This document shows, in pieces, positions 3,931-31,381 of a DNA stretch of 39,582 nt. The number at the start of each line of letters is the position of its first letter. Position 1 is the stretch's first letter. The notes under the pieces were generated by a model. It did no database searches, had not been told where the DNA came from, and worked only from the letters and a program-made list of their open reading frames with translations. Source of the stretch: a virus; the IMG/VR virus record IMGVR_UViG_3300043398_000276, positions 1 through 39,582 of that record. One strand, written 5' to 3'. Made by a program: the position numbers and the translations under genes.

Positions 3931-3951
3931 TTCAGTCCTGGAGGGGACCCG

Positions 3952-7041: not shown

Positions 7042-7062
7042 GCCCACCGTGATTCCTTCCAT

Positions 7063-7087
7063 TTCTTCCTGAAAAACTCAGGAGGAA
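7063..7087 (+). promoter_or_regulatory. Hairpin enclosing the capsid-gene ribosome-binding site
   Basis: Bases 7063-7072 pair with 7078-7087 (ten pairs, one G-U) around the five-base loop 7073-7077. The 3' arm contains the whole AGGAGGA Shine-Dalgarno of the capsid gene, whose ATG is at 7094. The stem would hide the site from ribosomes unless opened, or it could protect the 5' end of a processed transcript. There is no T-run, so it is not a terminator. Confidence 0.6.
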
Positions 7088-7093
7088 TTTTTC

Positions 7094-8146: not shown

Positions 8147-8221
8147 TTTCGGCTCTTGATTCTGGTCCGCTTGTTGCGGTTCCGGGATGACGATGAAGAA
8201 TCCATTTGAAAGGACTCTCTC

Positions 8222-9034: not shown

Positions 9035-9041
9035 CGATCAT

Positions 9042-9066
9042 GGGGCCGGGGGCGTTCCCCGGCCCC
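9042..9066 (+). terminator. GC-rich hairpin after the decoration gene
   Basis: GGGGCCGGGG at 9042-9051 pairs perfectly with CCCCGGCCCC at 9057-9066 around the loop GCGTT. It follows the decoration gene stop by 7 bases. No T-run follows, so it may be a partial terminator, a pause site or a 3'-end stabiliser that keeps capsid transcripts high relative to tail transcripts. Confidence 0.6.
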
Positions 9067-9088
9067 GATTCATTGCGAGGGATTGGAC

Positions 9089-9868: not shown

Positions 9869-9878
9869 GAGAGTGAAA

Positions 9879-10727
9879 ATGAATCTGCACAATCTGTATG
9901 ACGCTCTCCGTCGCGCCGACGTGCGAAGCGATAGCAAGGGCCTTCTGACTCCATCCGGCTGGTTGCTGGCGTGGGGAAATACGGTCCCGACGGATGCCAC
10001 GACCGGGTATGCGCCCGGCGCTTTGTTTTTTCACATTGATAGCAGCGGTCAAACGTCGCTCTACAAGAACGACGGCAGTTCGACCAGTTGCGATTTCAAT
10101 GCCCTGACCACTGACACCATGGCCGGTCCCATTGTCCTCGGTGACAATGAGACTCTGGCCTTGGGTGACGGCACGGATGCCACCTTGAAGTGGGATGCCA
10201 CTGATTTGGTTCTGGCTTTGGCCGCGACCGCCACATGGGTGATGGGAACGGATGCCGCGCTGCTGAATATGTTGCTGCGCGGTTCTCTGTCCATCGACCG
10301 TGCGGCGGCTGCCGGTGCGGTTGCGCTTCGCTTCGGCGAAACGCTGACCGAGGGCGGTGAAATCCGCGTCATGGACGAGGATGTTGCCATTGTCGCTGGC
10401 GCGTCCACGGATCTCACCCAGAACGTTCCTGCCGGTTCCGTGATTCTCATGGTTCAGGCCAATCTGGAAACCATCGTGACGGCCACTACCGCTGTCAAGG
10501 TGGGCATTGGTGTTTCCGCCGATCCGGACGCTTACGGAAAAACATCAGCCTTAACCAAGAATCTCAAGGTTGATACGGTTCCCGATTGGGCCGCTGGCGG
10601 TTCTGCCATTGACGTGAAAGTGTTTGCCGTGGATACCAATGGCGCCGCCGCTGGCACGTTGGACACCGGCACGGTGCGCGTTCGCATCATCTACTGGGTT
10701 CCCAACAGCCTGGATGACGCGGCGTAA
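9879..10727 (+). CDS. Structural protein of unknown role
   Basis: A 282-residue protein, Ala/Thr/Gly/Val-rich, without membrane segments. The N-terminus (1-45) is helical with a WLLAWGNTVPTD stretch. The middle holds short repeating beta units (LGDNETLALGDGTDATLKWD near 98-117) that recall fibre-shaft or beta-helix sequence. The C-terminus is a beta domain ending in VRIIYWVPNS. It lies between the adaptor and the nozzle protein and before a hairpin terminator candidate, so it is most likely a virion protein (decoration or fibre-like). GGAGAG before ATG 9879 sets the start. No specific family recognised. Confidence 0.65.
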   Translation: MNLHNLYDALRRADVRSDSKGLLTPSGWLLAWGNTVPTDATTGYAPGALFFHIDSSGQTSLYKNDGSSTSCDFNALTTDTMAGPIVLGDNETLALGDGTDATLKWDATDLVLALAATATWVMGTDAALLNMLLRGSLSIDRAAAAGAVALRFGETLTEGGEIRVMDEDVAIVAGASTDLTQNVPAGSVILMVQANLETIVTATTAVKVGIGVSADPDAYGKTSALTKNLKVDTVPDWAAGGSAIDVKVFAVDTNGAAAGTLDTGTVRVRIIYWVPNSLDDAA

Positions 10728-10744
10728 GTTTTCGCCTTTGAGAA

Positions 10745-10768
10745 CGGGGGAGGACCACCACTCCCCCG
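10745..10768 (+). terminator. Hairpin terminator candidate before the nozzle gene
   Basis: CGGGGGAG at 10745-10752 pairs perfectly with CTCCCCCG at 10761-10768 around an eight-base loop, and AA/TT can extend it with one bulged G. It is followed by GTTTCC, a short and imperfect T tract. It lies in the 60-base gap before the 786-residue tail gene, so it may separate head from tail expression. Confidence 0.6.
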
Positions 10769-10787
10769 GTTTCCTCGGACACTTTAT

Positions 10788-14735: not shown

Positions 14736-15343
14736 ATTATTACACCTTCGAAGGCTATCCGTATTTAGACGAAAAGGGCTTGAACCCTCACGTTCCGCTG
14801 GCAACGACGCACAATGAGCGGACGTGGCCTGGCGAACTTGACACCATGCGGCGCGATGGCCGTCTGACCATTGTAGACCAGACGCCGGAGAACCATCCCA
14901 ACCCGAAGGCGGGACGCGGCTGGGCTTGCGCGATACTGGCCGACCTGTCCGTCTATGACGGGTTTGTCGAAGTGGCCGCCGATGGACCGGACGGCGAAAT
15001 CATCCACAAAATTTATGGCGAGTTGCATTGCCCCGTGGGGAAGGGCGCGGTCCACGACTGCGCCAAGCTGGACCGGCACCTGAAAAAGTGCGACACGGAA
15101 ATCGAGTCTTCCGAATACGTCTGTGATGAATGTGACGATGAGCTTGCCGTCATTGAAGAGGCTAAATTGACCGGGCGTCTGAAGCGTTCGGTCAACCTTC
15201 TCACCAAGGAAATGGTGGACCATGAGAAGAACCTCGACCGCCTTCATGGCTTGCGTGAGCGGATCGTCCCGGAAAAAACGGCGGCGGATGAAAAGTTCGC
15301 GGCCTTGAAATCCGAACTGGAGTCGAAGCGTGGCGGATCGTAG
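14732..15343 (+). CDS. Unknown protein with C-terminal coiled coil
   Basis: A 203-residue protein beginning at a GTG that overlaps the previous stop (GTGA). The N-terminal 100 residues are a mixed globular domain with PYLDEKGLNPHVPL and PGELDTMRRDG stretches. C95, C111 and the pair in YVCDECDDE could bind metal. Residues about 140-200 form an Arg/Lys/Glu-rich helix likely to be coiled coil. It lies between the membrane coiled-coil gene and a fibre gene. It could be an accessory structural protein or chaperone, but I do not recognise it. Confidence 0.6.
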   Translation: MNYYTFEGYPYLDEKGLNPHVPLATTHNERTWPGELDTMRRDGRLTIVDQTPENHPNPKAGRGWACAILADLSVYDGFVEVAADGPDGEIIHKIYGELHCPVGKGAVHDCAKLDRHLKKCDTEIESSEYVCDECDDELAVIEEAKLTGRLKRSVNLLTKEMVDHEKNLDRLHGLRERIVPEKTAADEKFAALKSELESKRGGS

Positions 15344-17432
15344 CGGGAATCTCAACGCCTTCACGGCGGCGAACGGTGACCGGTTTACCGGAAACTGGCA
15401 ACTGAACAACGGTCAGGCTATGACCTGTGACGCCGGCGCGACCGTGACGACGACCGGCTATTATACCGGCACCATCGAGGGACAGATCGTCTGCAATCTG
15501 ACGATGGATAACCCCTTCCGCCTGCGGTCTTCGCAGACCAAGCCTACATCTGGTGACTGGGCTGGCCTCTCATGCAACGGTGTGGACGCCAACAGCACGC
15601 TCAAGGGTGCGATCATCGAGGACTGCGACTTCGGGATTTATTTCAACTCGACCTATGCAGCGGACAACCTTGACCTCGACAAGGTAAAATTCAACAACTG
15701 CGCCTTCGCCATCGGTGTGAATAGTGGGGCCGTGTCCGGAATTGATTTCGGCGACATCGAAATAGCGGGCGGCGGCACGTCGGCGACGGCGTTCACCGAG
15801 TGTATCCGCATGGCGGCATCGGGAACGTGGACGTTGGGCCGCGTCTGGATTCATGACCGCTCCCACAACAATTCTGCCTCGACTGATCCGGTTATCGACA
15901 TGCAGGCCGGGACATTGACAATCGCCGCGCTCATTATCCAGCGTGTTGCCAGCCATTCACGATACATCTACCGGACTACGGGGACGCCGACACTGAATCT
16001 GACAAAGGTTTGGATCGATAATCCATCGAACTCCACGGCGATTGATGATGCGATTTTTTACAATTGGACCAGCGGCACCCTAAACGTGGACGGCGGTATC
16101 GTACGAAGTTTCAGTGCGCTTGTAGATGACTGCGTAACGAATGCCCTCGTGACGTTTGACAATGTGGATTTCTATGGCTTGGGCCGTTACTCATTCATCG
16201 AGGGCGGAAATTTCACCCACTGTTATTTCGATGGCATAACCTATAGCACGAATCCGGTTCGGCGCGGGGGTTCGATTTCCAGCATTGCCAACACTGGCAC
16301 GGCCGACGGATCGACTGAATACAATCCTGGCGGATCGACTGGATTTTACTCTGTGGATTCGATTAATGACACGCAGGCGACGCCGAATTACCCGCCGTCG
16401 ATTTCGTCCGACCTCAATGTATCGTCAGTCACGGCCAATGGTGCAGCATTCGCGTGGACGGTCGGTTGTCCGGGTCGAACCGTGGTCATGATCGACGATG
16501 CGGCGCGAACAGTCAATGGGTGGTTCGATTCCGCTGAATATGTCGGTGTCGGCTGGGAAAGCTACACGGAATGGATTGATTATTCCGGCAAGGGCAAGAC
16601 GATTGACACGCTGACCAGCCGGACGCGGACCATTGCGAACCATTTGAAGGACAATACGGCATTCAAGGGGCGCCTGAAGTTTATTCCCTTTTGGGAAGAC
16701 CCAACTGACGCCGTGCATGGATCTGAGCAGTCGTTTACGACGCTGGCGAGTAGCACGACGCCGACGTTCTCCGGCATTGTCAGCCTGACTGATATGGGTG
16801 ACGGCACTCTGCTGGCCACTTGGACCGGGGCAACGGATGGTGTGAAATTTGAGGTGCACCTTCACACGTCCAGCATGAACGATACGAATCTGGATGCTCG
16901 AACCTATGTTGTTGGTTGTGTGGATGACAATGGTGGGTCGAGTTATTCTTACCGGATTGCCGTAACGGCTCAGGGCGCCGCCAAGCTGACCAAGAACACA
17001 ACCTACTACTGCGCGGTGCGGGCGATTGGCGCCGGGGGTCTGGATGACGGAAACACGGTCAATGCCAGCAAGAAGGTGACCAATCCCGTCGATCTTGGCA
17101 GCGTTGATGTCGTCATCCCTCAGGGTGCGCCGGTGTCGCTGCAAACGACGGCGACGGCGATTTATACCTGTCCGTCCGGCAAGGTGGCGTCGGTCAAATT
17201 GTCCTGCGCGAACGTGGACAGTTCCAGCCGGCCGTTGACGCTGCATCTGGTTCTCTCCGGTGGTTCGGAAGCGGCAACGAACAAGCTGGTCAACGCAGTG
17301 GTGTTGTCAGCGAACGCGGATCCGAATAAATACGGCCCATTCGTGCTTAACGCCGGGGACAAGATCAGCGGATTGACCGATTCGAATGACAAAGTGGTTG
17401 CGACTCCTACCCCTGTGGAGGTAACGCTATGA
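15330..17432 (+). CDS. Large beta-rich fibre or spike protein
   Basis: A 700-residue protein of Ser/Thr/Asn/Gly-rich beta sequence. About 40-340 shows short repeated strands with small residues (for example NCAFAIGVNSGAVSGIDFGD), as in right-handed beta-helices of tailspikes. About 480-588 looks like a fibronectin type III domain, with SLTDMGDGTLLATWTGA and TTYYCAVRAIGAGG. The final 110 residues are another beta sandwich. GTG 15330 has GGAG at 15319-15322 and overlaps the previous gene by 14 bases. A virion host-binding or tail surface role fits, but no catalytic residues of a polysaccharide lyase or hydrolase could be identified. Confidence 0.65.
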   Translation: MADRSGNLNAFTAANGDRFTGNWQLNNGQAMTCDAGATVTTTGYYTGTIEGQIVCNLTMDNPFRLRSSQTKPTSGDWAGLSCNGVDANSTLKGAIIEDCDFGIYFNSTYAADNLDLDKVKFNNCAFAIGVNSGAVSGIDFGDIEIAGGGTSATAFTECIRMAASGTWTLGRVWIHDRSHNNSASTDPVIDMQAGTLTIAALIIQRVASHSRYIYRTTGTPTLNLTKVWIDNPSNSTAIDDAIFYNWTSGTLNVDGGIVRSFSALVDDCVTNALVTFDNVDFYGLGRYSFIEGGNFTHCYFDGITYSTNPVRRGGSISSIANTGTADGSTEYNPGGSTGFYSVDSINDTQATPNYPPSISSDLNVSSVTANGAAFAWTVGCPGRTVVMIDDAARTVNGWFDSAEYVGVGWESYTEWIDYSGKGKTIDTLTSRTRTIANHLKDNTAFKGRLKFIPFWEDPTDAVHGSEQSFTTLASSTTPTFSGIVSLTDMGDGTLLATWTGATDGVKFEVHLHTSSMNDTNLDARTYVVGCVDDNGGSSYSYRIAVTAQGAAKLTKNTTYYCAVRAIGAGGLDDGNTVNASKKVTNPVDLGSVDVVIPQGAPVSLQTTATAIYTCPSGKVASVKLSCANVDSSSRPLTLHLVLSGGSEAATNKLVNAVVLSANADPNKYGPFVLNAGDKISGLTDSNDKVVATPTPVEVTL

Positions 17433-17881
17433 CACTCCTGGCAGGCCAGAAGAAAACGCTGTTACGAGGCAAGGGTAATCCGCCGGGCTGGCCGCAAAAT
17501 TGGGAATTTCCTGGATCCAATCCACCTGGTTGGCCGAGACCGATTGCTGACGGCCTGGTGGAGTTCCATGTTGACCGTGATGTGAAGTTGGAAATCTACT
17601 GCCAAGACAGTTTTGACGAGGATACGGACGCTCTTGTCGGGCACTATTTCGAGGTTGAAGCGTTTGACCAGAACGGGAACCGGGTGCGCCTGCGCGACTC
17701 CGAGGATGTTCCTTGGGCCATGCGCGCACTGATTCAGATCGGACCCACCGAGAATGCGCATTTTGGATTTTCTCGCTTTTTGCAGTTCGATCTGGTGCGG
17801 GCGGTTGGTCGAGTCCGGGGGCGGGTCAGGGTGTTCGGCGACTCCTCCACTGCTATGACAGATTTCGAGGTTCGGAAATGA
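17429..17881 (+). CDS. Pro/Trp-rich N-terminus protein, paralogue of the next gene
   Basis: A 150-residue protein whose start overlaps the previous stop by 4 bases (ATGA). The N-terminus (13-37) is rich in Pro, Gly and Trp (GNPPGWPQNWEFPG). The rest is a small beta domain with DSFDEDTDALVGHYFEVEAF. The first 110 residues or so of the next gene repeat the plan: Pro/Trp tract, then ILDEFGDDTDDLSCHWIRVSA. The two are probably tandem duplicates, with the second having gained a propeller. Likely tail-tip or fibre proteins. Confidence 0.6.
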   Translation: MTLLAGQKKTLLRGKGNPPGWPQNWEFPGSNPPGWPRPIADGLVEFHVDRDVKLEIYCQDSFDEDTDALVGHYFEVEAFDQNGNRVRLRDSEDVPWAMRALIQIGPTENAHFGFSRFLQFDLVRAVGRVRGRVRVFGDSSTAMTDFEVRK

Positions 17882-19296
17882 GTTTCGCGTATGCAGCCAA
17901 GGCGCCAGCGGCGGTAAGCTGTCCATCCGGTCCTCCGGGCTGGCCGTCTGGCTGGCCTTTGGAGCCCGGTCCGCCGTGGCCTCCGGGCGAATGGCCTATT
18001 GCCATTGAGGCGGGCGACTACACCCTTGATGTCGATATTTCAACTCATGTGACGACCGAGGATCTGGACTGCGTGGAACTGGAATCGCGGATTCTCGATG
18101 AATTCGGCGACGACACGGACGATTTGTCCTGCCACTGGATTCGTGTTAGCGCGACGATTGACGGAACTCCTGTGTCCATGCGTCTGGATCCGGCGGATGA
18201 TTGGGTGACGGAATTACTGCTTCCCGCCGTCAATTTCGAGGGAACGAAGATTGGGGCCTATGAGTGGGTGTATTTGGATTTGGACAGCGCGGACTATCTG
18301 AAAACGATAGAATGGTCGTTGGATATCCCGACAGTAGATCCAGTGGTGGAGAACGAGGCGGAAACATTTGTGCTGGCGCCGATGGAAACAGAGCTTGTTG
18401 TTGACGCTTCAGACACATACATCGAATCTGCTGAGAGCATTTTTCCATACGGTAATCATATATATGTTGCGGCAAGAGGCAGTGATCGTGTCAGCAAGTT
18501 TTTGAAAGCTGATCTGAGTTTGGTTTCGAGCATTAATAATTCGACGGTCTTTGCAAACCTATATTCATTGGCAGAAGATGGCGGATATCTTTTTTCGATA
18601 GAATCCGGTGGATATATTGGCGAAATTCGTCTTTCTGATTTTTCATTGACGCGATCTTACGACATCCCATCTGTTGGCGGTGCCCAGCTTGCTGTTGCCG
18701 TAGATTCAAATTATGTTTATGGTGGTGGCGATACCAATAGCCGTCTTACTAGGGTGAACAGGTTGTCTTTTGTTGCCGACGGATTCTTGTCGTCAGCGTC
18801 TGCGCTTGACGGAATTCGTGAAATATTGATTCGTGACGGATATTTGTGGGTTTTGGCGTCTGACGACGATATGATCACTCGGATAAGCGTAGCATCATTC
18901 AGTATTGTTGACAGTCTTTCCGATGTTTCCATGGATACTGCGAGTTCAATGGCTTTTGGTGATTCTTATTTGGGAGTCCTTTCATATGTCGAAGATATTG
19001 TAACATTTATTGATCCTGAAGATTTTTCAATCGCCGGGACGGTTTCTGGTATTACGTCAAATTCCGGGTCAGAAATCAAGTTTGCCGACGGATATTTTTA
19101 CGTTACAGCTTCAGGTTCTCCAGGGCAAATCAGGCGGATCCGGGAGTTTTCAATGGAATTGGTGGAAACGTATTCTGATTCGGCAGGACTGAGAAATGCT
19201 GGATGTTTTTGTGTTTCTGGTGGATTCGCTTACTGTTCGCCAGATGATGGAACCGGTAACGATAAACTTTCAAAAATCAATCTTGGTTATTCGTAG
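17878..19296 (+). CDS. Pro/Trp-rich domain fused to a beta-propeller (receptor-binding candidate)
   Basis: A 472-residue protein. Residues 15-41 are Pro/Gly/Trp-rich (CPSGPPGWPSGWPLEPGPPW). Residues about 45-145 match the small beta domain of the previous gene. From about 180 to the end, repeats alternate a 'Gly-Tyr-Leu/Phe' strand and a Ser/Asp-rich turn (for example DGGYLFSIESGGYIGEI and DGYLWVLASDDDMITRI), typical of NHL/YncE-like beta-propeller blades. That half of the gene is clearly more AT-rich and uses codons ending in T or A, unlike its own N-terminus, so the propeller may have been acquired separately. As the last fibre-type gene it is a good candidate for receptor recognition (inference). 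ATG 17878 overlaps the previous stop (ATGA). Confidence 0.65.
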   Translation: MSFAYAAKAPAAVSCPSGPPGWPSGWPLEPGPPWPPGEWPIAIEAGDYTLDVDISTHVTTEDLDCVELESRILDEFGDDTDDLSCHWIRVSATIDGTPVSMRLDPADDWVTELLLPAVNFEGTKIGAYEWVYLDLDSADYLKTIEWSLDIPTVDPVVENEAETFVLAPMETELVVDASDTYIESAESIFPYGNHIYVAARGSDRVSKFLKADLSLVSSINNSTVFANLYSLAEDGGYLFSIESGGYIGEIRLSDFSLTRSYDIPSVGGAQLAVAVDSNYVYGGGDTNSRLTRVNRLSFVADGFLSSASALDGIREILIRDGYLWVLASDDDMITRISVASFSIVDSLSDVSMDTASSMAFGDSYLGVLSYVEDIVTFIDPEDFSIAGTVSGITSNSGSEIKFADGYFYVTASGSPGQIRRIREFSMELVETYSDSAGLRNAGCFCVSGGFAYCSPDDGTGNDKLSKINLGYS

Positions 19297-19307
19297 AGGA
19301 GGTTGTC

Positions 19308-20585
19308 ATGGGTGGTGGAGCACAAAGTCTTGGCCCCGGTGGAGCCGCATGGAATCGTCAGCCACAAGTTTATGACCCGCTGGCTGGTTGGAATCGTATC
19401 AATGCAGGTTCCCAATACGGTCTTGCGCCCGGGATTGAAATCCGGCAGAACGCAAACGGAACGTATGGCGTTGTCCGTCAGTGGGATAAATCGAAGGTCG
19501 TTGGCCGTGCCGGCAGCATTGAAGAACTCATGAATTCTCCCCAGTTCAGCGCGAATTGGCGCACGGGTCCGGCGCCGGCGATGCCGGGCCAGGGTGGCGG
19601 TGCCGCAGGCGGTGGCACTCCGGCCCCCGGCGCAACGGGTGCCTACATGCCTCCGACTCAGACGGCTGGCATGCCTGGTGAATATACCCCTCCGGCCAGT
19701 GGCATTCCTGGCAATCCGGCGATCAACCCGCTGATTGAGGATTTTCGCGCGCAACAACAGCGCGCCAACCAGGCCAACGAAGCCCGATATGCTGATATCA
19801 AGGGTCAGCACGAAGGCCAATACACAAATATCATGGGCCAGTTGGAAGGACTTGGCACTCAGCAAAAAGCCGATGTCAACACGCAGTATGCGGGGATTGG
19901 GTCGCGGATCGGTCAGGACATGGTTTCCCGCGGCCTGTCAGGGACGACCATCGCTCCGACGATGGCCATGGGCGTGGAACGTGAACGGCAGGCGGCTCAG
20001 TCCCGGTTGCAGGAGGGATTGACCCGTGAACGCCTCGGCTACCAGACCAGTCTCATGGGCGACAAATTGGCCTTCATGGAGCGTCGAAACGATGTCGGTC
20101 CGGACGTGGGTCAGTTCAATGCCCTGCTGAACGCCTACGGTCAGGCTGGAAGCCCTGGCGGAAATGGTTCAGTGACCTATGGCGCCGGTGGCGGTGCATC
20201 GTATAATATGGGCGGCGGTGGTGTTCCGGGTGGTGGAATCGGTGGCGCCGGTAGTCCGGTTCCCGTTGGCATGGGTCAGGGCGCGCCATTTGTCCCGAAC
20301 CAGAACGGGTTCGGTGTGGCGCCGGACAAGTCGCCCACGATGGTGGCTCCCGCGCCGGGTGGTGGCACGACCTCCACGTATATTCAGGGAGTGGTTCGCC
20401 GCGATGCCAACGGTAACCCCATTCCCATTCAGGGGCCGGCGCCGACGACCGTTACCCAGACGCCGCGCGGGACGACCTACACTCGGATCATGGGTCCGAA
20501 AACGACGGTCCAGCCGTCCGCATCACAACTGCAAGCGCAGATTCGCGCGCGCAGCATGCGGGCGCCGGAACGGGCAGGCTGGTAA
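19308..20585 (+). CDS. Gly-rich internal virion protein candidate
   Basis: A 425-residue protein with a strong ribosome site (AGAGGAGG) before ATG 19308. The N-terminal 60 residues are globular; 80-140 and 280-345 are Gly/Pro-rich; 145-250 is a helical Gln-rich stretch likely to be coiled coil, including EARYADIKGQHEGQYTNIMG. It lies just before another Gln-rich protein and the giant polyvalent gene. Short-tailed phages often have such a trio of internal 'ejection' proteins that leave the head with the DNA. That role is inferred from position and composition. Confidence 0.6.
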   Translation: MGGGAQSLGPGGAAWNRQPQVYDPLAGWNRINAGSQYGLAPGIEIRQNANGTYGVVRQWDKSKVVGRAGSIEELMNSPQFSANWRTGPAPAMPGQGGGAAGGGTPAPGATGAYMPPTQTAGMPGEYTPPASGIPGNPAINPLIEDFRAQQQRANQANEARYADIKGQHEGQYTNIMGQLEGLGTQQKADVNTQYAGIGSRIGQDMVSRGLSGTTIAPTMAMGVERERQAAQSRLQEGLTRERLGYQTSLMGDKLAFMERRNDVGPDVGQFNALLNAYGQAGSPGGNGSVTYGAGGGASYNMGGGGVPGGGIGGAGSPVPVGMGQGAPFVPNQNGFGVAPDKSPTMVAPAPGGGTTSTYIQGVVRRDANGNPIPIQGPAPTTVTQTPRGTTYTRIMGPKTTVQPSASQLQAQIRARSMRAPERAGW

Positions 20586-20597
20586 CCAGGGGACAAC

Positions 20598-21857
20598 ATG
20601 GCCATCAACGTAAGTTACAATACCGATCCTCGCCTTTCCGGGACAGCCGCCTATGCAGCCGGCGCCGGCGAGTATCAGCAGCGTCAGCAGCAGCGCGGTG
20701 ATGCTCTGGCGGCCCAGGCGCGGCAGGCTGGCATGCAACAGCAGCAGCTTGACTTGCAGCGCGAAAACATGCAGTTGGCCGACAAGCGGTATTACGAGGG
20801 GATCGAGAACGAAGTTGACCGTGACCTCTGGATGTCGCAGCAAGGGTTGATCGAGCGCGAACAGCAGATCCAGGGCCAGATGCGCCTGGGCGATCATGCC
20901 GCCGAATTGGAGCGCACTCAACGTCTTCAGATGATGCCGTGGGCGCAGCGGCAACTGGAACAGATGGAAGAAGAAATGTTCCGGATCCAGATCGACCCGT
21001 CGTTGGACGATTTCGAGCGCGAGTCCGCGATGCGGGAAAAGGGATTGCAGTTGCAGCGGGTTCACTCCGCCGCGAATGCCGCGCAGCGCGCACAGTCACG
21101 TTTTCCGCAGGGGCAGGATGTCGGCGATTCGTGGAATGATGGCAACACCGGCGCGATGATCACTCGTGATAACGACGGCAATGTCCGGCTGCTGCTGAAA
21201 CCGGACGAAATCAATCCGGAGCCGAAGGGCGTTCCGCAGTTTAAGGATTTGGCGGCAATTCAGAAATCGGCGTATGAGGCTTTGACGCGAATGACTGGTG
21301 ATGGAACGATGGTTCCGCCAACTCCACAGGATGTTGAAGATTTTACTATGCGGATTTTGGCACTTCGGAATCGAATTATGAACCAGTCTCCCGCCGCGCC
21401 CGTGGAACAGCAAGGCGGAATGCCACCGCCAGAACAGTCAGCCCCGGTTCAGGATCCCATGCAGGGCGTCGCGCCACAAGGTGACCCGGAAGAATTGCGC
21501 CAGGCTGCATTGCAGGCCGCGCCGCAACCTGACAAGCTGGTCGGTGATCAAGGCAAGGAGTGGTTTCGGAATGCTGTTGGCGTCGAAAATGATGAGGTTG
21601 GCGTTGTTGTAGATGCCGTTTTTGATTTGGTTTTTACGCAGGGTAAAAATCTCATTTCGCCCGAAGGCAGGGCTTTGCTTGAAGGCTTACCCGAACCGGA
21701 AATCCGTAAAATAGCTCGCGCCCTTGCTGCCACCGGCGCTATGTCTGAATTGATCAAAGATGAACGCAAGCAGAAAATCAATGAAGCCAAAGGCCGCGCT
21801 CCGCGTAGCGCTTCTATGTTGTCAGGGAACATGGCGCCCGCTGGTTGGGGGCGGTAA
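20598..21857 (+). CDS. Gln-rich coiled-coil internal virion protein candidate
   Basis: A 419-residue protein. Residues about 25-160 are Gln/Glu/Arg/Met-rich and strongly coiled-coil-like (with QQRGDALAAQARQAGMQQQQ). About 270-320 is a Pro/Gln linker. The C-terminal 100 residues are a helical domain. AGGGGA precedes ATG 20598. Its TAA shares a base with the ATG of the giant gene, so the two are translationally coupled. It is probably a structural partner injected with, or needed to load, the giant protein. No family recognised. Confidence 0.6.
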   Translation: MAINVSYNTDPRLSGTAAYAAGAGEYQQRQQQRGDALAAQARQAGMQQQQLDLQRENMQLADKRYYEGIENEVDRDLWMSQQGLIEREQQIQGQMRLGDHAAELERTQRLQMMPWAQRQLEQMEEEMFRIQIDPSLDDFERESAMREKGLQLQRVHSAANAAQRAQSRFPQGQDVGDSWNDGNTGAMITRDNDGNVRLLLKPDEINPEPKGVPQFKDLAAIQKSAYEALTRMTGDGTMVPPTPQDVEDFTMRILALRNRIMNQSPAAPVEQQGGMPPPEQSAPVQDPMQGVAPQGDPEELRQAALQAAPQPDKLVGDQGKEWFRNAVGVENDEVGVVVDAVFDLVFTQGKNLISPEGRALLEGLPEPEIRKIARALAATGAMSELIKDERKQKINEAKGRAPRSASMLSGNMAPAGWGR

Positions 21858-24800
21858 TGGCCGATCCACTGGCGATCTTGCAAGACGAATTGCAGCGCGC
21901 TGAACAGCCCGTGCAGGATCCCATTGCCATCTTGAAGGATGAATACTATACCCAGATCGAGCAACAGCCCGAGGCGGTTCCTCAACCGAAAAACTACGGG
22001 CTTCCCCCGCGCTACAAGTGGAATTCTCTCGGGCCTATCGGGTCCGGTGAAACCGTTTCCCGCCTCGGGAAATCTGGCGAACTCGTGCCGTTTGTCGGCA
22101 TGTTCAGTAGTGTGAAAAAACTTCATGGTGTTCGGTCGGCGCTGGATGCGCTGGACGCCGAACAGAAGGGGACCAGCGATCCGCTGGACGATACAACGCG
22201 GACGCAATATCAGGACACGGTGCAGGAATTCCTTGCCAATTACGAGTATGCCCAAACCCGTGGCTACAGTCTGCCGGCGGAAATTTCCAGCGTGGTTGCC
22301 CAGATGGTGCCATTCGCCATCGAAATTTGGGCCACGGGTGGCATTGCCGGCAGTGCGCGCGCCGGTGTCGGCGCTATGGGTAAGCAAGCCTTGGGCATGG
22401 TCGGCAAGGGCATGTTCAAGCGCGCCGCCATAAAAATGGCTACTCGTGGCGGGGCATTGGCGGCTGCTGGCATGACGCGCGCGGCGCTCATGCCGGGTCG
22501 AATCGCCAAAAAGTATGAAGAGCTTCGCATGCCGAAAGTCCATGTTGCGCCCAATGGCGAACTGACGATCAACCGAAATGAGGACGGCGCGGCAACGGCA
22601 TTTTTCAAAGCCTTCGGCGATGTCGCTATCGAAAACATTTCCGAGGAAACCGGGTCGCATATTGGCAAGGCTTTGTCGAAAATTCCCGGCGTGGACGCGG
22701 CCAAGCAAAAGATCGTTCATGCCATTTCAAAGGCATGGGGTCAGACGGGTAAAAGTTCCGCTGAACTTATGCGTCGTCTGGCTACCAAAGCCGGATACCA
22801 TGGCGTCCTCGAAGAAATTGGCGAAGAACGACTTGGCGACGCTCTCCGGGTGGTTACTGGTGTTGACAATTTCGGCCTTGAGGGTGACGAGAATACCACC
22901 TTCAATCGCGCCGTGGCGGCGATTCCTTCCGGACGTCAACTACTCATTGAAACCGCCTCCTTCATGGTTCCTGGTGCCGTGCAGCAAGCCGGCGCCCGGA
23001 TCATCGACCGGAAGGCCAGCGCCATGCGCGCGGCCGACGAAAAGGCGCAGCTTGACGATGCCGTGCGCGCCAACCTTCGATCCCCGGAAGGCGCCCGTGA
23101 TTTCGTGGATATGTTCCCCGAGGCGGCCACGGAAATTGGCGCCACAAGTTCCCCGAGCCGGGCCATCCTCGACAAATACTTTCCGGATATCCGCTGGTCG
23201 AGCCGGGAACGCATGGAATTTGCCGATGCCGTCCGGGGGGCGTTGGCGGAGAAAAACAAGGGTGCCACGGTGCCGGCGCAGGAAGCCACACAGGAAGCCC
23301 CGGAAGTGGCGCCTGAACCCGTCCAGCCGGCCGCTTATGAACCCGAGGCCGTCACTGAGGCCCCCGCCTTGGAACCGATTCCTGAGCCTGTAGTGCAGCC
23401 AGAACAGCCTGCGGCGCCAGTTCAACAGCCGATTGCTGAACCTGAACAAACTCAACAACCTGAACAATCTGTAGATGACAACCCGGACATTCGCCTGGCC
23501 GGGGCGGTTTCCGATGCCTTGAAAAGTGGTAAGTCATTCAAAAACAAGGACTTCTTTGACCTTGCTGACCAAGTTTACGGCGGCACGCGGGCCGAAGGCA
23601 AATACCGCTCGTCCGACGCCTATGACGCCATGGAACTTGGCGTAAACCGCTACGTGGGCGAGATTATCGCCTCCCGGCCTGATGCCGCCGGCGCCAAGGA
23701 AGCCATTGGCCAGATCGGTCAGATCGTTGACCGCCTGCCCACCCAGACAAACCGCACGGGCGAAAAGGACGTTCTGCAACAGTTTTCGACCCCGCCGGAC
23801 TACGCCTTTGTGGCGGCATGGGCGGCAAATATCAAAGAGGGGGATGCCGTCCTGGAGCCGTCCGCCGGCACCGGATCCCTGGCTACCCATGCCAGGACGG
23901 CCAAGGCCACTGTCACGGCCAACGAACTCTCCAAGCGCCGTGCCGCGCTCCTGAAGTCCCTGGGCGTCGATGTCATGACGGAGGACGCGGAGCATATCAG
24001 CAACCTGATCCCAGAAGGGAAGCGGCCTAACGTGGTTCTCATGAACCCGCCGTTCTCGCATTCCGGTGAGCGCATGGGGACAACGAAGATTGCCGGCATG
24101 GACCGGCGCCATGTGGCCTCGGCCCTGAAGGCACTGAAGCCGGGCGGCCGTCTGGTGGCGATCATCGGTGCGCCGATGCGCGGCGAGGAATCCAACGCTT
24201 CCCGCCAGTGGTTTGCCGACATTGCCAAGGAATATGCCGTCCGGGCGCACGTCATGGTCGGCCGCGGCGTGTATCGGAAATACGGCACGACGTTCCCGAC
24301 GCGCATGCTGGTGATTGACAAGGCGGGTCCGGCGCCGCTGCCCAAGATTCAGAATGCCGAAACGCTGGAACAACTGGTCGATCTACTGGAAGGTGTTCGC
24401 AATGCAAAAGTCAGTCCTGCAAGCGGTCAAGCGGCTGAACCAACGGCCGATCAACCAGTTGGCCAAGAAGTTCCTGTTGCAAGAGAAACAACCGCTCCGG
24501 TTGCACGTCCAGCACAGCCTGGACCTGCTCCAGTGGTTGCTGGAGAACCGGCCGGAGTCGGCGCAGGGCGATCCGGCGGAACTGAGGGAGGCGGCCGCGA
24601 TGCTGGAATACCACAGCAACCAGGACCAGGTGTTGAAGCTGCTGACAGAGGGGTTGCCGAAGGACGCGATCGAGGCGACAAACCCGGTGGACCTGGCGGG
24701 GCCAATGTCGAACTGGCTGGCAATGAGTCTGCCGTCGTCGAACGAGTAGAAGCGCCGGTTGAGAGTGTCCAGCCGACTGCTGCCGCGTCTGAATCCACGG

Positions 24801-27800
24801 AATCCTCTACTGTTGACGAGAACGAGGAATCGGAGATCACCGAGGCCGTGTTCGATCCGTGGAAACCGACAACCAATTTCGGCGGCAAGAAGCATCCTGG
24901 TTCATTGGCAGAATCCACCGCCTTGGCTGCTATCAAAATGCCGGTGATGAAAACCAAGGTCCATATCCCGAAGGATGTCATTGAAACTGGCCGGCCGTCC
25001 GAATCGCAGCTTGAAGCCGTGGCTTACATTGCACAGGCACATAATACTATGTTGCCAGGGACGGAAATTCGATCTGCCGGTGCCTTGGGTGACGGCACAG
25101 GATCGGGTAAGGGCATTACCCTTGCGTCAATTATTTTAGACAACATGATGCAGGGCCGAAAGAAGGCGTTGTGGATTAGCAAAAATCAAGATTTAGCAGA
25201 AGCCGCTAGGTTGGATTGGCAGAAAATCGGACAATCAGCCGATGATATTTTCCTGCTGAATGATTTCAAGGCCAGTGATCCAGTTGATAAAGACACCGGG
25301 ATTCTTTTCACGTCTTATTTTACGATGGCAAAGGATTATAAGATTCCGGCCAAAAGCCGACTTCAACAGATTATTAACTGGGTTGGCGCGGATTTTGATG
25401 GGGTCTTGATCTTTGACGAATCGCATATCATGGGCAATGCCAATAAATCGGGTCGCAAAGAAGCGGCGGCGGTGGCTTTGGCCGGTATCGAATTGCAAAA
25501 CGCCCTACCCAATGCGCGGATCGTCTATTCCTCGGCCACGATGTTCACCGAAGTGCGAAACATGCTCTATGCTGAACGCCTTGGCCTATGGGGGCCAACC
25601 ACTTCGTTTCCGACAAAAGAAGATTTTATCAACGCGGCCAATGAGGGCGGCGTGGCATTCATGGAAATGATTTCGCAAAACCTGAAAGCGTTTGGCAAAT
25701 ATATAGCGCGCAGCCTTAGTATGAACGATGGGACGCCAGAAGGCACGGTGGACTACAGCATCCTCGAACACAAACTGACGGATGAACAAAAGACTTCCTA
25801 TGATATTTTCGCAAAAACGTGGAGCCTGATTTACAAGAACATGCATACCATGTTCGAGCATTTGGGCTACAAGGGCCGTGACAAGGCGAATGCTGAAGGC
25901 ATGTTCCAGTCGTCGGTGCAGCGGTTCTTTGGTCAAGTCCTGATGGCGCTGCAAGCTCCGGCAATGATCAAGTCGATCCAGCAAGACTTGAAGGACGGAA
26001 ATTCCGTCTTGATCCAGTTGACCAACACCGGCGATGCCGCCCAGGAACGCGCCATTGCGGAACGCGAAAATGAAGACGATGAAATTGACGTGACCCCGCG
26101 TGAAATGTTGACACGGTTTCTGGATGCAGCATTTCCCACCACCATCATGGTCGAATCCATTGACGACATGGGCAATAAGGTTACGGCGCCCTTACTGGAT
26201 TCCCAAGGCAAGCCGGTTGAAGATCAGGAAGCCGTTCGTATCCGCGAAAAGCTCAAAGACGACCTCGGCATGGTAGCATTTCCGGAAAATCCGTTGGATA
26301 TGCTCATCAATCATTTCGGGCCGGACATGGTAGCCGAAGTGACAAGCCGAAAACGGCAAATCCTGCGGAGCAAAGACGGAAAAATTCAGATTAAGAATCG
26401 TGGTGGAAAGGGCGCGAACCTTGCGGAACAGAAGGCATTTCAGGACGGCAAAAAGCGGATTGTCATTTTCAGCAAGGCCGGCGGCACTGGCGCCAGTTAC
26501 CACGCCGATCTTGGGGCCAAGAACCAACAGAAGCGCATTCACTACCCGTTCCAACCCGGATGGGAAGCCAACGTGTTCTTTCAGGGGCTTGGTCGATCAC
26601 ACCGCACCAACCAGAAGCAGGCGCCATCCTATCGCCTGATTACCACCGACCTTCCCGGCCAGCGCCGTTTCATTTCCACCATTGCCCGGCGCATGGAACA
26701 AATGGGTGCGCTGACACACGGCAACCGCAAGGCCACTGGCGGAGTGTTCAAATCCACGGACAACCTGGAATCCAAGGAAGCCCTCGATGCTCTCCGTTAT
26801 TTCTTGCTGAAGATGCGCGACAATGATGTTGCCGATATTTCGCGTGACGAATTTGAATCGGCAACGGGGCTGGACCTTGAAAACGACACGCAATTCCCAA
26901 CCATGGGTCGGTTTCTGAATCGCATTCTTGCTTTGCCTTTTCAAATGCAGGTCGATGTCATGAACCAGTATTTGAAAGTGCTGGAAGACAAAATTGAACT
27001 GGGAAAGGCGTCTGGGCAGATCGACCAGGGGATTGAAAATTACAAGGCGGAAAAGATCACCGAGAATCAGACCAAGGAAGTCTATCACGATCCGGAAAGC
27101 GGGGCTAAGGCGTTCTATCACAAGCTGACGGCCACCCATAAGATCGCCGTCCGTGAATGGCGCGACGTGCGGACGGCGCATTCATTTGTGGTCAACAAAA
27201 AGAGTGGCAATATCTTTGCCGTGGAAGACGGCCCGGACAAAACGGATGATGTCAGTGGCCGCATGTATAAGACGTATCGTTTACGTGGCCATGGCGACCG
27301 CACCAATATTGTCGAGCGCGCGGAATTGGACGCCAATCGTTCAGGTAATTGGCAGCACGTTTCCGACAAAAAGGAAGCGGAGAAGTTGTGGGATGAGGGT
27401 TTGAAAACTGCGCCCAAGACACGCGAAAATGAAATCCATCTGATTTCCGGTGCGTCCCTGCCAATCTATCACAAACTCGGACGTGGCCAGCCTCGTGTTA
27501 TGCGTATGATGGTTGGAAAAAAGAAGCTTCTGGGCCGTATCATTAGCGCGGACGTGATTGAGGAAGTTCTCCAGAATATTGGTGTGGCTAATGATCCGGT
27601 CAAGGTATCCAGTGGCGAAGCCTTTGACAAGGTGATGAATGGCAATATCCAGCTCATTTTAGATAACGGCTGGAAGATCCGAAAAATGATGGTGGGCGGT
27701 CAAAAGCGCATCGTCCTGGATGGTCCCACCATTTACCATGCGAAAGCTCTTGCCAACGTGGGCGTTTTTACGGAGCGTGTTGGTGGCGCCCTCAAGACCA

Positions 27801-30800
27801 ACTTTTTCATTCCTGCCACCCAGGAAGGACTTGCCGCTGTCACCACCGAACGGCCCATTGTCCGGCTCATGTCGTTGGATTCCACCGAACACATGGCTGC
27901 CATGGCACCCTACTCCAATACCGATGTTCCCGGCGGTTTCACCAATACCGGCAATACGGCCGCGCCCACCATCGGCAAGCACGAGATCGTGTCCGATATT
28001 TCCCGGATCTTCGGCGTCAAGATCGGTTTTGGCAATGTTCCCAAGGGTGTGGGCGGCCGCTATCGGACCTTCGTTGAAACGGCGCGAATCCACGGCCGTG
28101 AAGCTGCGATCCTTGCCATTGCCGCGCATGAAGTGGCGCATCACCTTGATAAAAAGACTTCCATCCGGGATCTGTGGTCCGGCCAGGCTGAACGCGAACT
28201 TCAAGCCATGGACTACGAGCCGAAAGACCGGGCCTTTGAAGGGTTCGCCGAATATATCCGCCGGTGGACGTTTGGCGACGAAACCCTGAAATCGACAGCC
28301 CCGATGTTCGACAACTGGTTCTGGACCCAATGGGCCGATAAGAACCCGGAATGGGTGTCGCGCCTGGAGCAAATGAAGGACTTGATCGACCGCTACCGCA
28401 ACCAGACCGTTCTGAAGCAGGTGGTGGCCAATATCCACTTTGATCCGAAGCAGTCTGACAAGGACGTTGGCGAATCGACCACAGCCTATCTGGCGCGGCT
28501 TACCCGTGAGGCCGGGCATCGGTTTTACGCACAACACAAGGACCAGTTCCATTACCTGCACCGGATGGAGAAGGACGCAATTAAGCAGGGCTACAAGCCT
28601 GGCCCTGGCAATATTGGCCCCTATGAAAAAGCCCTTACCATGTTCCAGTCCGGGGCTTCCTTGGCCAATACGGCCATCGAGGAAGGCGTTTTTCTCATTG
28701 GCAATGACGGTCAGAAGATCAAACGGATCAGCCGTGGTTTGCGTGAGATATTCGAACCGATTTCACCGAAGGAACGCACGGATTTCACGGCTTATGCCTA
28801 TGCGCGGTCGGCCATCGAGGCATGGAAAGAGGGAACTAATCCCGGTATCGAGAAGGCCCAGGCCAAGGCGGTTTACGATCAGCTCCACAATGAAAAGTGG
28901 GAAGCCGTGGCAAAGGAGTGGACTGGCTTCAATGACAGCCTAATTGTCATGATGGCCGATGCCGGCGTGTTGTCGCGGGAAACGGCGCAGACGATCATTG
29001 CATCGCACAAGAACTACCTGCCGTTCATGCGGTCGGCGGAAGATGTCCGGCGCGCCAAGGATCGTGGCGCGGCATTGCTAAATCTTCCCAACCCTCTCAA
29101 GCGCCGCTTTGGATCCAACCTGCCAATTATCGACCCCGTGCAGGCCACCATCGAGCGCGCCGTGCGGTTCTATAGCGCGGCGGCACATCAGACGATTATG
29201 AATTCAGCGGCCAATCTGGTCCTGAAAACGGAAGGCATGGGCAAATGGGGCGAAGTGGTTGCGCCCGGCCTGAAGGCTACCAAAATTCCGATGACGGAAG
29301 TGAACGAAATTCTGGAAGACATGGGATTCACCATTGCCAACATGGAATCTGGCGACAAGATTTCCCAGTTGGAAGAACACGAGCTTGACGACCTTGCGTA
29401 TTCCTTCATGACGATCTACCGGCCGGACTACTTCTATCGTGGCCGCAAGCCAATTGGTCGCGTATTCGTCAACGGCCAACCGAAGATGTTTGAGTGGGAC
29501 AAGGACATTTACCGCACACTGTCCGGGATGGACGTGGTTCAAATTCCGTGGTTCGTTCGCATCCTCGGAAAATTCACCAACCTCATGAAACTGGGGGCAA
29601 CCGGAGTCAGTGCCGGATTCGCGGTCGGCAATCTCATCCGTGACTATCCCGCCTTCCTGATCCAGCGGAAACACGCTACCGGCCTCAAGGGCGCCTTGCG
29701 CGCCGCTCCCGTGCCACTGCCCGGCACGGCCCTAACCGATTACATTATGTCACTCTGGAACGAAATGCGCGGCGGCGAAGGCGATCCTGTTGTCAAGCTA
29801 TGGAAACAGTTTGGCGGTGAACTCGCGCAAAGTCTGGGCATGGACAAAAAGAAGATTTCCGTTACGGCCGACCAGTTGTTTGGCAAGCGGTCCACGGCAA
29901 CCTTTGTGAACATGGCGAAGCATCCGATTGATGCGCTCCGGACTATTATCTCCGTGTCCGAAGTTGGCCCCCGTATCGCTGAATTCGAGGCGGCGCTTGC
30001 CAAGCAGGGTTATACCCGAGAAGCCATGAAGGCTGGTCAAGTGCCGCCGCTTGGCGTGATTATCCCCGCCATGAATGCCAGCAAAGATGTCACATTGAAT
30101 TTTCAGCGCATGGGCTACCATGGCCGCGTTCTCAATCAAATCTTCCCGTATTGGAACGCACAGCTTGAAGGCGTTGACAAAACAGTCCGGACAATCAAGG
30201 ACGATCCGAAACGGGCGGCAATCAGCATCGCGGCCTTGGTATCCGCCGGTATCGTTTACTGGATGCGCGTTCATGACGAGGATTGGTATAAGGAATCCGC
30301 GCCATGGTTGAAATATGGAACATGGGTTATCACGGATGACGAAGGCAATCCGATTGCACGGCTTCCGCGCCCCCATGAATGGAATTGGCTGTTTGTCGCA
30401 AGCACGGAAGCATTCATGAATCGCTGGAATGACGAAGATCCGAAGGCGGTGCAGGAATGGATTTCCGGTGTGACTTCGGCAACCCTGCCGGGGGCGTGGC
30501 CATCGCTGATTACCCCATTGGTAGAAGTGATTGCCAATAAAGACCTGTCATTCACTGGCAATCCAATTGTCAATGACACGCTCCAGGAACTTCCTGCGGA
30601 ACGCCAGTTCACGCCCCAGACTACGGAAACCGCCAAGGCCGTTGGCCGCTGGCTTGGCTGGTCACCGGCAAAGATCGAGCATTTCGTCAACCGTGTTTCC
30701 GGTGGCCTGTATCGCAAAGCAACCGTTCCCGTGGAAGGTGCGTTTACCGGGTTCGACAAGTATTCCTCGGCCGATCTTCCGGTAATCGGCCGTTTCATGA

Positions 30801-31381
30801 TGCGGAATGACTACCCCGCAAGCCTGAACGAGTTCTACGCTGAACTGGACGATCTGAGTAAGGAAGCCAAGGCGGAAAAGCAGGATGGCACGGAAGGCGT
30901 TGCCGCGCGCGAATTCAACACCATGGACCGCTACCGCAACGTCATGAGCGCCATGCGTGATTTGCGCGACAAGGCAAGCAAGGAAGAAGCCGTGTTGATC
31001 GACCGCTACCGGATCGGCCTTGCGCGCCAGGCACTTGACAAGGACCGGCTGGAACGATACCCGACACCATGGAAGGACGAGAACGCTCCCGAGGCCGTCC
31101 AGAAGGAGATGGCGCGCATTGTCGGCAGCGCGGCTTATCAGGCCAGCGCAGCGCGTCCACAGCGGCAAATGGGCGAGTCCATCGACCACTACCGCGAGCG
31201 CCTTGCCGAACATGAAAAATCCGTGAAGAACGCGGAAGCCTTCTTGGACGAAACGGGGCTGGAGGCAGTCGATATCCGACCCATGATGCTCGGCGAAATG
31301 CGCCGGCGCGGCTTGAAAACGGCCAACGAAGGCGCCGCGCGCCGTCTGCGTTCACTGGGCGATGACGACAGCGACCGATAA
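21857..31381 (+). CDS. Giant polyvalent protein: methyltransferase, Strawberry-notch helicase, metallopeptidase-like, LPD38-like
   Basis: A 3174-residue, single-frame protein. About 140-330 is a hydrophobic/amphipathic Gly/Ala region that may touch membranes. About 475-545 is a Pro/Glu/Gln linker. About 630-810 is an adenine-specific methyltransferase (LEPSAGTG near 666; NPPF 730-733). About 845-985 is a linker containing a second gene. About 1000-1700 is a Strawberry-notch/DarB-like SF2 helicase (Walker A GTGSGKG 1080-1086; DESH 1187-1190; SSAT 1225-1228; QGLGRSHR 1576-1583). About 2080-2140 has HEVAHH (2091-2096) with E2132, zinc-peptidase-like. About 2570-2900 resembles the LPD38 domain of large phage polyvalent proteins. 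P1 DarB is a virion methylase-helicase that protects injected DNA from type I restriction; a similar role is likely. ATG 21857 has GGGGG upstream. Confidence 0.85.
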   Translation: MADPLAILQDELQRAEQPVQDPIAILKDEYYTQIEQQPEAVPQPKNYGLPPRYKWNSLGPIGSGETVSRLGKSGELVPFVGMFSSVKKLHGVRSALDALDAEQKGTSDPLDDTTRTQYQDTVQEFLANYEYAQTRGYSLPAEISSVVAQMVPFAIEIWATGGIAGSARAGVGAMGKQALGMVGKGMFKRAAIKMATRGGALAAAGMTRAALMPGRIAKKYEELRMPKVHVAPNGELTINRNEDGAATAFFKAFGDVAIENISEETGSHIGKALSKIPGVDAAKQKIVHAISKAWGQTGKSSAELMRRLATKAGYHGVLEEIGEERLGDALRVVTGVDNFGLEGDENTTFNRAVAAIPSGRQLLIETASFMVPGAVQQAGARIIDRKASAMRAADEKAQLDDAVRANLRSPEGARDFVDMFPEAATEIGATSSPSRAILDKYFPDIRWSSRERMEFADAVRGALAEKNKGATVPAQEATQEAPEVAPEPVQPAAYEPEAVTEAPALEPIPEPVVQPEQPAAPVQQPIAEPEQTQQPEQSVDDNPDIRLAGAVSDALKSGKSFKNKDFFDLADQVYGGTRAEGKYRSSDAYDAMELGVNRYVGEIIASRPDAAGAKEAIGQIGQIVDRLPTQTNRTGEKDVLQQFSTPPDYAFVAAWAANIKEGDAVLEPSAGTGSLATHARTAKATVTANELSKRRAALLKSLGVDVMTEDAEHISNLIPEGKRPNVVLMNPPFSHSGERMGTTKIAGMDRRHVASALKALKPGGRLVAIIGAPMRGEESNASRQWFADIAKEYAVRAHVMVGRGVYRKYGTTFPTRMLVIDKAGPAPLPKIQNAETLEQLVDLLEGVRNAKVSPASGQAAEPTADQPVGQEVPVARETTAPVARPAQPGPAPVVAGEPAGVGAGRSGGTEGGGRDAGIPQQPGPGVEAADRGVAEGRDRGDKPGGPGGANVELAGNESAVVERVEAPVESVQPTAAASESTESSTVDENEESEITEAVFDPWKPTTNFGGKKHPGSLAESTALAAIKMPVMKTKVHIPKDVIETGRPSESQLEAVAYIAQAHNTMLPGTEIRSAGALGDGTGSGKGITLASIILDNMMQGRKKALWISKNQDLAEAARLDWQKIGQSADDIFLLNDFKASDPVDKDTGILFTSYFTMAKDYKIPAKSRLQQIINWVGADFDGVLIFDESHIMGNANKSGRKEAAAVALAGIELQNALPNARIVYSSATMFTEVRNMLYAERLGLWGPTTSFPTKEDFINAANEGGVAFMEMISQNLKAFGKYIARSLSMNDGTPEGTVDYSILEHKLTDEQKTSYDIFAKTWSLIYKNMHTMFEHLGYKGRDKANAEGMFQSSVQRFFGQVLMALQAPAMIKSIQQDLKDGNSVLIQLTNTGDAAQERAIAERENEDDEIDVTPREMLTRFLDAAFPTTIMVESIDDMGNKVTAPLLDSQGKPVEDQEAVRIREKLKDDLGMVAFPENPLDMLINHFGPDMVAEVTSRKRQILRSKDGKIQIKNRGGKGANLAEQKAFQDGKKRIVIFSKAGGTGASYHADLGAKNQQKRIHYPFQPGWEANVFFQGLGRSHRTNQKQAPSYRLITTDLPGQRRFISTIARRMEQMGALTHGNRKATGGVFKSTDNLESKEALDALRYFLLKMRDNDVADISRDEFESATGLDLENDTQFPTMGRFLNRILALPFQMQVDVMNQYLKVLEDKIELGKASGQIDQGIENYKAEKITENQTKEVYHDPESGAKAFYHKLTATHKIAVREWRDVRTAHSFVVNKKSGNIFAVEDGPDKTDDVSGRMYKTYRLRGHGDRTNIVERAELDANRSGNWQHVSDKKEAEKLWDEGLKTAPKTRENEIHLISGASLPIYHKLGRGQPRVMRMMVGKKKLLGRIISADVIEEVLQNIGVANDPVKVSSGEAFDKVMNGNIQLILDNGWKIRKMMVGGQKRIVLDGPTIYHAKALANVGVFTERVGGALKTNFFIPATQEGLAAVTTERPIVRLMSLDSTEHMAAMAPYSNTDVPGGFTNTGNTAAPTIGKHEIVSDISRIFGVKIGFGNVPKGVGGRYRTFVETARIHGREAAILAIAAHEVAHHLDKKTSIRDLWSGQAERELQAMDYEPKDRAFEGFAEYIRRWTFGDETLKSTAPMFDNWFWTQWADKNPEWVSRLEQMKDLIDRYRNQTVLKQVVANIHFDPKQSDKDVGESTTAYLARLTREAGHRFYAQHKDQFHYLHRMEKDAIKQGYKPGPGNIGPYEKALTMFQSGASLANTAIEEGVFLIGNDGQKIKRISRGLREIFEPISPKERTDFTAYAYARSAIEAWKEGTNPGIEKAQAKAVYDQLHNEKWEAVAKEWTGFNDSLIVMMADAGVLSRETAQTIIASHKNYLPFMRSAEDVRRAKDRGAALLNLPNPLKRRFGSNLPIIDPVQATIERAVRFYSAAAHQTIMNSAANLVLKTEGMGKWGEVVAPGLKATKIPMTEVNEILEDMGFTIANMESGDKISQLEEHELDDLAYSFMTIYRPDYFYRGRKPIGRVFVNGQPKMFEWDKDIYRTLSGMDVVQIPWFVRILGKFTNLMKLGATGVSAGFAVGNLIRDYPAFLIQRKHATGLKGALRAAPVPLPGTALTDYIMSLWNEMRGGEGDPVVKLWKQFGGELAQSLGMDKKKISVTADQLFGKRSTATFVNMAKHPIDALRTIISVSEVGPRIAEFEAALAKQGYTREAMKAGQVPPLGVIIPAMNASKDVTLNFQRMGYHGRVLNQIFPYWNAQLEGVDKTVRTIKDDPKRAAISIAALVSAGIVYWMRVHDEDWYKESAPWLKYGTWVITDDEGNPIARLPRPHEWNWLFVASTEAFMNRWNDEDPKAVQEWISGVTSATLPGAWPSLITPLVEVIANKDLSFTGNPIVNDTLQELPAERQFTPQTTETAKAVGRWLGWSPAKIEHFVNRVSGGLYRKATVPVEGAFTGFDKYSSADLPVIGRFMMRNDYPASLNEFYAELDDLSKEAKAEKQDGTEGVAAREFNTMDRYRNVMSAMRDLRDKASKEEAVLIDRYRIGLARQALDKDRLERYPTPWKDENAPEAVQKEMARIVGSAAYQASAARPQRQMGESIDHYRERLAEHEKSVKNAEAFLDETGLEAVDIRPMMLGEMRRRGLKTANEGAARRLRSLGDDDSDR
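24402..24749 (+). CDS. Overprinted 115-residue gene inside the giant gene
   Basis: A complete gene lies in the +1 frame of the giant gene, in the linker between methyltransferase and helicase (outer residues about 849-964). ATG 24402 follows GGAAGG at 24388-24393 with 8 bases of spacing. By eye, 28 of its first 35 codons end in G or C, against 8 of 35 in the outer frame for the same bases; elsewhere the outer gene is GC-ending. The inner product is well-mixed and helical, with VLQAVKRLNQRPINQLAKKF, LHVQHSLDLLQWLLEN and QVLKLLTEGLPKDAI segments, while the outer product here is a Gly/Pro/Arg/Asp-rich tract. I recognise no family. It could act with, or against, the giant protein. A chance frame of this quality is unlikely. 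Confidence 0.7.
   Translation: MQKSVLQAVKRLNQRPINQLAKKFLLQEKQPLRLHVQHSLDLLQWLLENRPESAQGDPAELREAAAMLEYHSNQDQVLKLLTEGLPKDAIEATNPVDLAGPMSNWLAMSLPSSNE

Follow-up and report, generated by a model that had tools for sequence, protein, structure and literature searches.

Small genes wholly contained, out of frame, in larger ones have been described in bacteria and phages. In Bacillus subtilis, comS is a small out-of-frame gene within the giant gene srfAB, and its product, ComS, regulates competence (PMC8160284). In phage lambda, the spanin gene Rz1 is nested in the +1 frame of Rz, and gene callers routinely miss it (PMC6139136). Separately, Iyer et al. (2017) described a polyvalent methylase-helicase dyad, including strawberry-notch forms, that occurs with LPD domains in phages and plasmids (PMC5512222). 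The words "overlapping" and "linker" are absent from the text of that study, and a nested gene is outside its description.

The locus analyzed here is similar to comS/srfAB in that a small out-of-frame gene within a giant gene has its own product, but the organism, the host gene, and the protein are different, and the gene analyzed here occurs repeatedly across many phages and plasmids, with free-standing relatives in addition. Like Rz1, it is a phage gene wholly embedded in the +1 frame. However, Rz1 is a lipoprotein partner of Rz, whereas the present protein is predicted to be soluble and helical, and its outer gene is a virion-type polyvalent giant. Since nested genes as such are already known, the novelty resides in the family to which the protein belongs, in how widely this family occurs, and in its members that stand free of the giant. 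No earlier report of this gene was found in the literature searched, which left most subscription papers and all bioRxiv preprints outside. Long nested genes (here, 108 to 156 codons) that can be traced over tens of phage and plasmid lineages and that have free-standing relatives are rare.

Organization of the locus

The window, i.e., the whole stretch of DNA analyzed, has 39,582 nucleotides (IMG/VR virus record IMGVR_UViG_3300043398_000276, positions 1 to 39,582). Its relevant features are as follows.

1489-5733, + strand: context genes, terminase large subunit (1489-3345) and portal-like head-tail adaptor (3952-5733)
21845-31381, + strand: outer giant polyvalent gene, 3178 codons, first in-frame ATG at 21857 (Pfam AAA_34, Helicase_C_4, and LPD38; DarB-like methylase PHROGs)
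23735-24400, + strand: adenine-methylase domain of the outer protein, ending in LLEGVR (PHROG matches)
24388-24393, + strand: putative ribosome-binding site GGAAGG of the nested gene (outer residues E-G)
24401-24404, + strand: start signal, outer codon AAT (N) followed by G, giving the inner ATG
24401-24889, + strand: Gly/Pro/Ala/Arg-rich linker of the outer protein, carrying the nested gene (sequence composition)
24402-24749, + strand: nested gene, 115 codons (115 amino acids), +1 to the outer frame, product predicted to be all-helical (homology, substitution pattern, AlphaFold model)
24890-25804, + strand: AAA_34 (strawberry-notch NTPase) domain of the outer protein (Pfam)
26288-27037, + strand: Helicase_C_4 (strawberry-notch C-terminal) domain of the outer protein (Pfam)
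30278-30724, + strand: LPD38 large polyvalent protein domain of the outer protein (Pfam, E = 4e-27)

The terminase and portal-like genes identify the window as a tailed-phage contig. Genes at 6100-13148 and 15330-21857 had no PHROG match at an E value of 1e-3, and those of the latter region may encode further virion proteins. The outer gene resembles the dyad of Iyer et al. (PMC5512222): it fuses an adenine methylase to a strawberry-notch SWI2/SNF2-like ATPase, carries an LPD domain, and shares the window with packaging genes. The nested frame lies wholly inside the outer open reading frame (ORF). An identical contig from another metagenome (IMGVR_UViG_3300047547_000326) stops at about window position 24410, within the first codons of the nested gene, which suggests that the assembly breaks or that strains vary at the linker.

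Codon usage in the two frames

The initial annotation had proposed a hidden gene in this linker, and its frame, its coordinates, the position of the Shine-Dalgarno sequence (8 nucleotides upstream of the ATG at 24402), and its codon counts were reproduced exactly. Of the first 35 codons, 28 end in G or C in the inner frame against 8 in the outer one; over all 115 codons, the figures are 100 and 39. Outside the overlap, codon counts show that the outer frame is GC-ending, as had been remarked.

Not all these features are evidence for a gene. When the outer gene was shuffled synonymously, the inner frame remained free of stops in 20% (by permutation) to 54% (by resampling) of the cases, because a Gly/Pro/Ala/Arg linker seldom gives +1 stops, and frame openness was dropped as an argument. 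The high G/C content at inner third positions (GC3) was also dropped as sole evidence, since it is partly a by-product of the amino acids of the linker; a second linker, rich in Pro, Ala, and Glu (23285-23464), has high inner-frame GC3 as well. The low GC3 of the outer frame and the codon usage in the overlap, on the other hand, are not by-products of linker composition. The codon-usage score of the inner frame (+0.116) equals that of the flanks (baseline of +0.115), whereas that of the outer frame in the overlap is -0.218. Ten ORFs in the +1 and +2 frames of the giant gene were compared, and 24402-24749 is the only one in which codon usage beats that of the outer frame, its codons resembling those of the genome; the others failed, e.g., the 271-codon ORF at 22578-23393. 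We regard this asymmetry as stronger evidence than the open frame, and homology and substitution patterns as decisive.

A conserved start among relatives

The inner protein of the window is too diverged for direct searches, and the outer gene was therefore needed as bait. With the inner protein as query, neither direct tblastn nor a pattern search gave a match, and its pairwise BLASTP alignment with a relative (L003) was insignificant, so that profiles were required. The bait retrieved 80 genome loci and 78 viral loci, to which plasmid loci were added. The best identities of the window outer protein to these relatives were 38 to 52%; since the window has no close relative, its copy is supported via the family rather than by a direct dN/dS.

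The same +1 ORF, at the same start position of the methylase-helicase linker, was found in 81 loci (72 distinct sequences), in all of which it starts 5 nucleotides upstream of position 240 of the methylase profile model. At this start, the outer codon was AAT in 45 of the distinct sequences, GAT in 23, CAT in 3, and TAT in 1, and the codon of the next residue starts with G. NAT is thus found in 72/72, yet NAC is commoner than NAT in the methylase flank (1157 versus 893). The relatives also keep the ribosome-binding site, with GGAG or GGAGG upstream of the inner start in 58 of the 72. A single silent change in the outer protein (AAT to AAC) abolishes the inner start, and the function of the inner gene is therefore directly testable.

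Some loci depart from this pattern. The inner-start site is GTG in L161, and homologues with a shifted start were present in three others (L104, L127, and L166). In two loci (L154 and L155), the outer codon is NAC, the inner frame is closed, and the linker is short, which is a clean loss of the nested gene, and no homologue was detectable in L144 and L128. Overall, the nested gene is carried by a clade of giants with few losses, and a separate clade of short forms lacks it. The latter proteins (~1470 amino acids, nearly all from Alphaproteobacteria) have a homologous methylase-strawberry-notch core but differ in the ending of the linker, and neither the inner start nor an inner homologue was found in them. 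No nested ORF follows the methylase in the DarB-like giants of Klebsiella, Serratia, Pseudoalteromonas, Pseudomonas, and Vibrio phages. In two annotated plasmid records, the giant alone is annotated across the nested gene; the family was overlooked because gene callers reject nested genes. An intact copy is found, for instance, on plasmid MEALZ_p of the cultured methanotroph Methylotuvimicrobium alcaliphilum 20Z (NC_016108, 105156-105497, minus strand). Three copies contain in-frame stops (two TAG in L219, TGA in L239, and TAG in L240), suggesting decayed or recoded elements. One short-form gene, on plasmid p7 of Azospirillum argentinense (L203), is flanked by type I-E cas genes on one side and by a restriction endonuclease that binds phosphorothioated DNA on the other, a location suggestive of a role in defense for this form.

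The inner protein is very probably translated separately, and we strongly infer internal initiation at its own Shine-Dalgarno site and ATG on the mRNA of the giant. Programmed +1 frameshifting could otherwise append the ORF to the methylase, and in the window the inner frame is indeed open for 29 codons upstream of the ATG. Yet the conserved element is a Shine-Dalgarno site plus an ATG, L006 has an inner-frame stop 5 codons upstream of the ATG, L007 and L011 have few open codons there, and the free-standing genes described below start at the same N terminus as the nested ones, all of which make a frameshift very improbable.

Selection on both frames

Codon-position divergence was computed over 51 pairs of sequences. 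At outer positions 1/2/3, it was 0.416/0.280/0.223 in the overlap, against 0.185/0.121/0.465 in the methylase flank and 0.156/0.110/0.485 in the helicase flank. The third position is thus the fastest in the flanks, whereas in the overlap it is the slowest (outer third, i.e., inner second) and the outer first position, i.e., the inner third, is the fastest. This reversal, found in 17 of 17 disjoint pairs, shows that the inner frame is under purifying selection. With the inner protein fixed and codons used as in the genome, an open outer frame would have a median probability of 0.001 (P = 0.002 in the window), and both frames are therefore maintained; in the relatives, a single ORF joins methylase and helicase. 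The initial annotation had proposed an alignment of homologous giants as a check on whether both frames stay open and which one substitutions favor: both are open, and all 17 pairs favor the inner one.

A new family of small proteins predicted to be helical

A profile built without the clade of the window picked up the window protein (E = 4.6e-11), and a profile of the plasmid clade matched the remaining members with 97% probability. The members have in common the pattern LN..PLN..A...L....pdP..LY.LQL..W.LE. AlphaFold2 predicted a compact, all-helical structure for the window protein (pLDDT of 94.5 and pTM of 0.87), in agreement with the "normal helical protein" noted earlier, while the model of a distant member was mostly helical (pLDDT of 90.2 and pTM of 0.83). 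The proteins are acidic, with a median pI of 4.8 (5.9 in the window).

Searches of Pfam, NCBIfam, PHROG, and PADLOC gave no significant match common to the members, only isolated weak matches of single members, and the profile search suggested with the initial annotation returned no relative naming a function. The best Foldseek E values were 1.1 to 1.9 (both models against the PDB, and the window model also against viral models), and the best VIA-align Z score, for the window model only, was 2.5. The nested gene therefore belongs to a new protein family. A YqeY-like ORF, identified by eye (L194:7948-8394), matched the nested profile weakly (E = 8.5e-5 in its genome), and both proteins are helical. 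This match is probably due to chance, and a YqeY/GatB-type fold was absent among the listed Foldseek and VIA matches.

A frame left open by chance, in a linker rich in GC and poor in stops, has in its favor the shuffles that stay open (20 to 54%). It is refuted by the 17 of 17 pairs with reversed rates and by the profile match, while the fixed start, the codon usage, and the confident fold also speak against it, and its probability is practically nil. From these comparisons of sequences, 24402-24749 is almost certainly a real gene, and the joint claim of a nested and separately translated gene, any function left aside, is highly probable. Homology, start, and selection support the original proposal that a tolerant linker encodes a second, real protein in another frame.

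Copies outside the giant gene

Whole genomes were searched with the inner-protein profile, which revealed nested copies in several phyla. The draw of Thermodesulfobacteriota contained about 13 free-standing genes, 12 loci of which were analyzed in detail (L242 to L253). They form one clade (SH-aLRT of 99.6) and have ordinary codon-position rates. Their genomic context is not conserved, with neighbors, identified by eye, as varied as Ppx/GppA-like proteins, PAS-domain kinases, NUDIX, rubrerythrin-like, and isoaspartate methyltransferase-like proteins. In four further loci (L195, L254, L255, and L256), the inner gene is intact but the surrounding giant is deleted or broken; in all of these except L254, a leftover of the outer linker frame has stayed open. 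Of the 17 genomes with free or giant-less copies, 15 yielded no AAA_34 helicase, the remaining 2 having weak AAA_34 matches in ORFs of ~960 amino acids. The inner protein therefore does not depend on the giant, and both a purely in-linker origin and a strict role as partner of the giant become doubtful.

Two origins had been put forward, birth in the linker or absorption of a small gene into the giant frame. The tolerant linker does house a real protein, but the family is not confined to it, as the 12 free loci show. The free-standing relatives are compatible with absorption as well as with a later escape from the nested position, the tree being unrooted and based on 115 columns, and they open the question of capture versus escape to study. 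De novo overprinting in the linker, followed by the escape of one copy to the chromosome in Thermodesulfobacteriota, is a tentative reading that we put a little short of even. In its favor, nested copies are widespread and varied, whereas the free ones make up a single clade in one of the phyla drawn; however, the normal codon usage of the inner frame and the aberrant one of the outer frame are those expected for the absorption of a pre-existing gene, and the tree is small and unrooted.

Putative role of the nested protein

The product would be a separate 13-kDa protein, usually acidic and predicted to be all-helical. Judging from its location, it may be a self-sufficient small binding protein, serving as an adaptor or as an inhibitor of a host factor and made by the element alongside the giant, with an even chance that both work in the same process. 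Their shared program might be the establishment and protection of incoming DNA, and the free-standing bacterial copies would then use the same protein without the giant.

The initial annotation had suggested a partner or inhibitor of the giant enzyme, for which the genomes lacking AAA_34 so far give no support. The fixed proportion that it proposed for the two proteins is likewise unsupported so far. A dedicated partner, chaperone, or inhibitor binding the methylase-helicase would have its co-production guaranteed by nesting. Many cognate chaperones are small, acidic, and helical, as is the inner protein. It is always nested in the giant among the phages and plasmids sampled, and L154 and L155 lose it together with the shortening of the linker. 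The packaging of Dar proteins in P1 can also require a small protein, as in DarA/Hdf (PMC12810830). Nevertheless, free-standing copies in genomes without the helicase and intact inner ORFs in the four loci with deleted or broken giants make this role unlikely, and direct binding to the giant equally so.

A protein with its own host target, for anti-defense or host takeover, merely housed in the giant gene, would be compatible with these free-standing and giant-less copies, and an unrelated second nested gene (see below) fits a slot for varied cargo. But the PADLOC, PHROG, Pfam, and NCBIfam searches brought no match, and chromosomal copies next to housekeeping genes would be odd for an anti-host protein; we consider this role possible but rather doubtful.

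A second nested gene in the same linker

In the giant of phage BS-TP4, which infects Bacteroides salyersiae (L198:3710-4069), and in 12 related viral contigs (L205 to L216), the same linker contains a conserved +1 ORF of another kind, with the pattern MEQKYYVA...LTITxHPGxLTExDI. Its codon-position rates are also reversed (0.421/0.355/0.303 in the overlap versus about 0.16/0.14/0.54 in the flanks), and profile comparison found no relation between the two nested families. At least two kinds of nested gene therefore occupy this linker. We tentatively suggest, with somewhat less than even confidence, that the methylase-strawberry-notch linker is a cargo slot in which mobile elements have repeatedly housed whole small genes out of frame. 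If so, one stretch of DNA would supply both the giant enzyme and a separate effector, and one of the nested genes would have a second life as an ordinary chromosomal gene.
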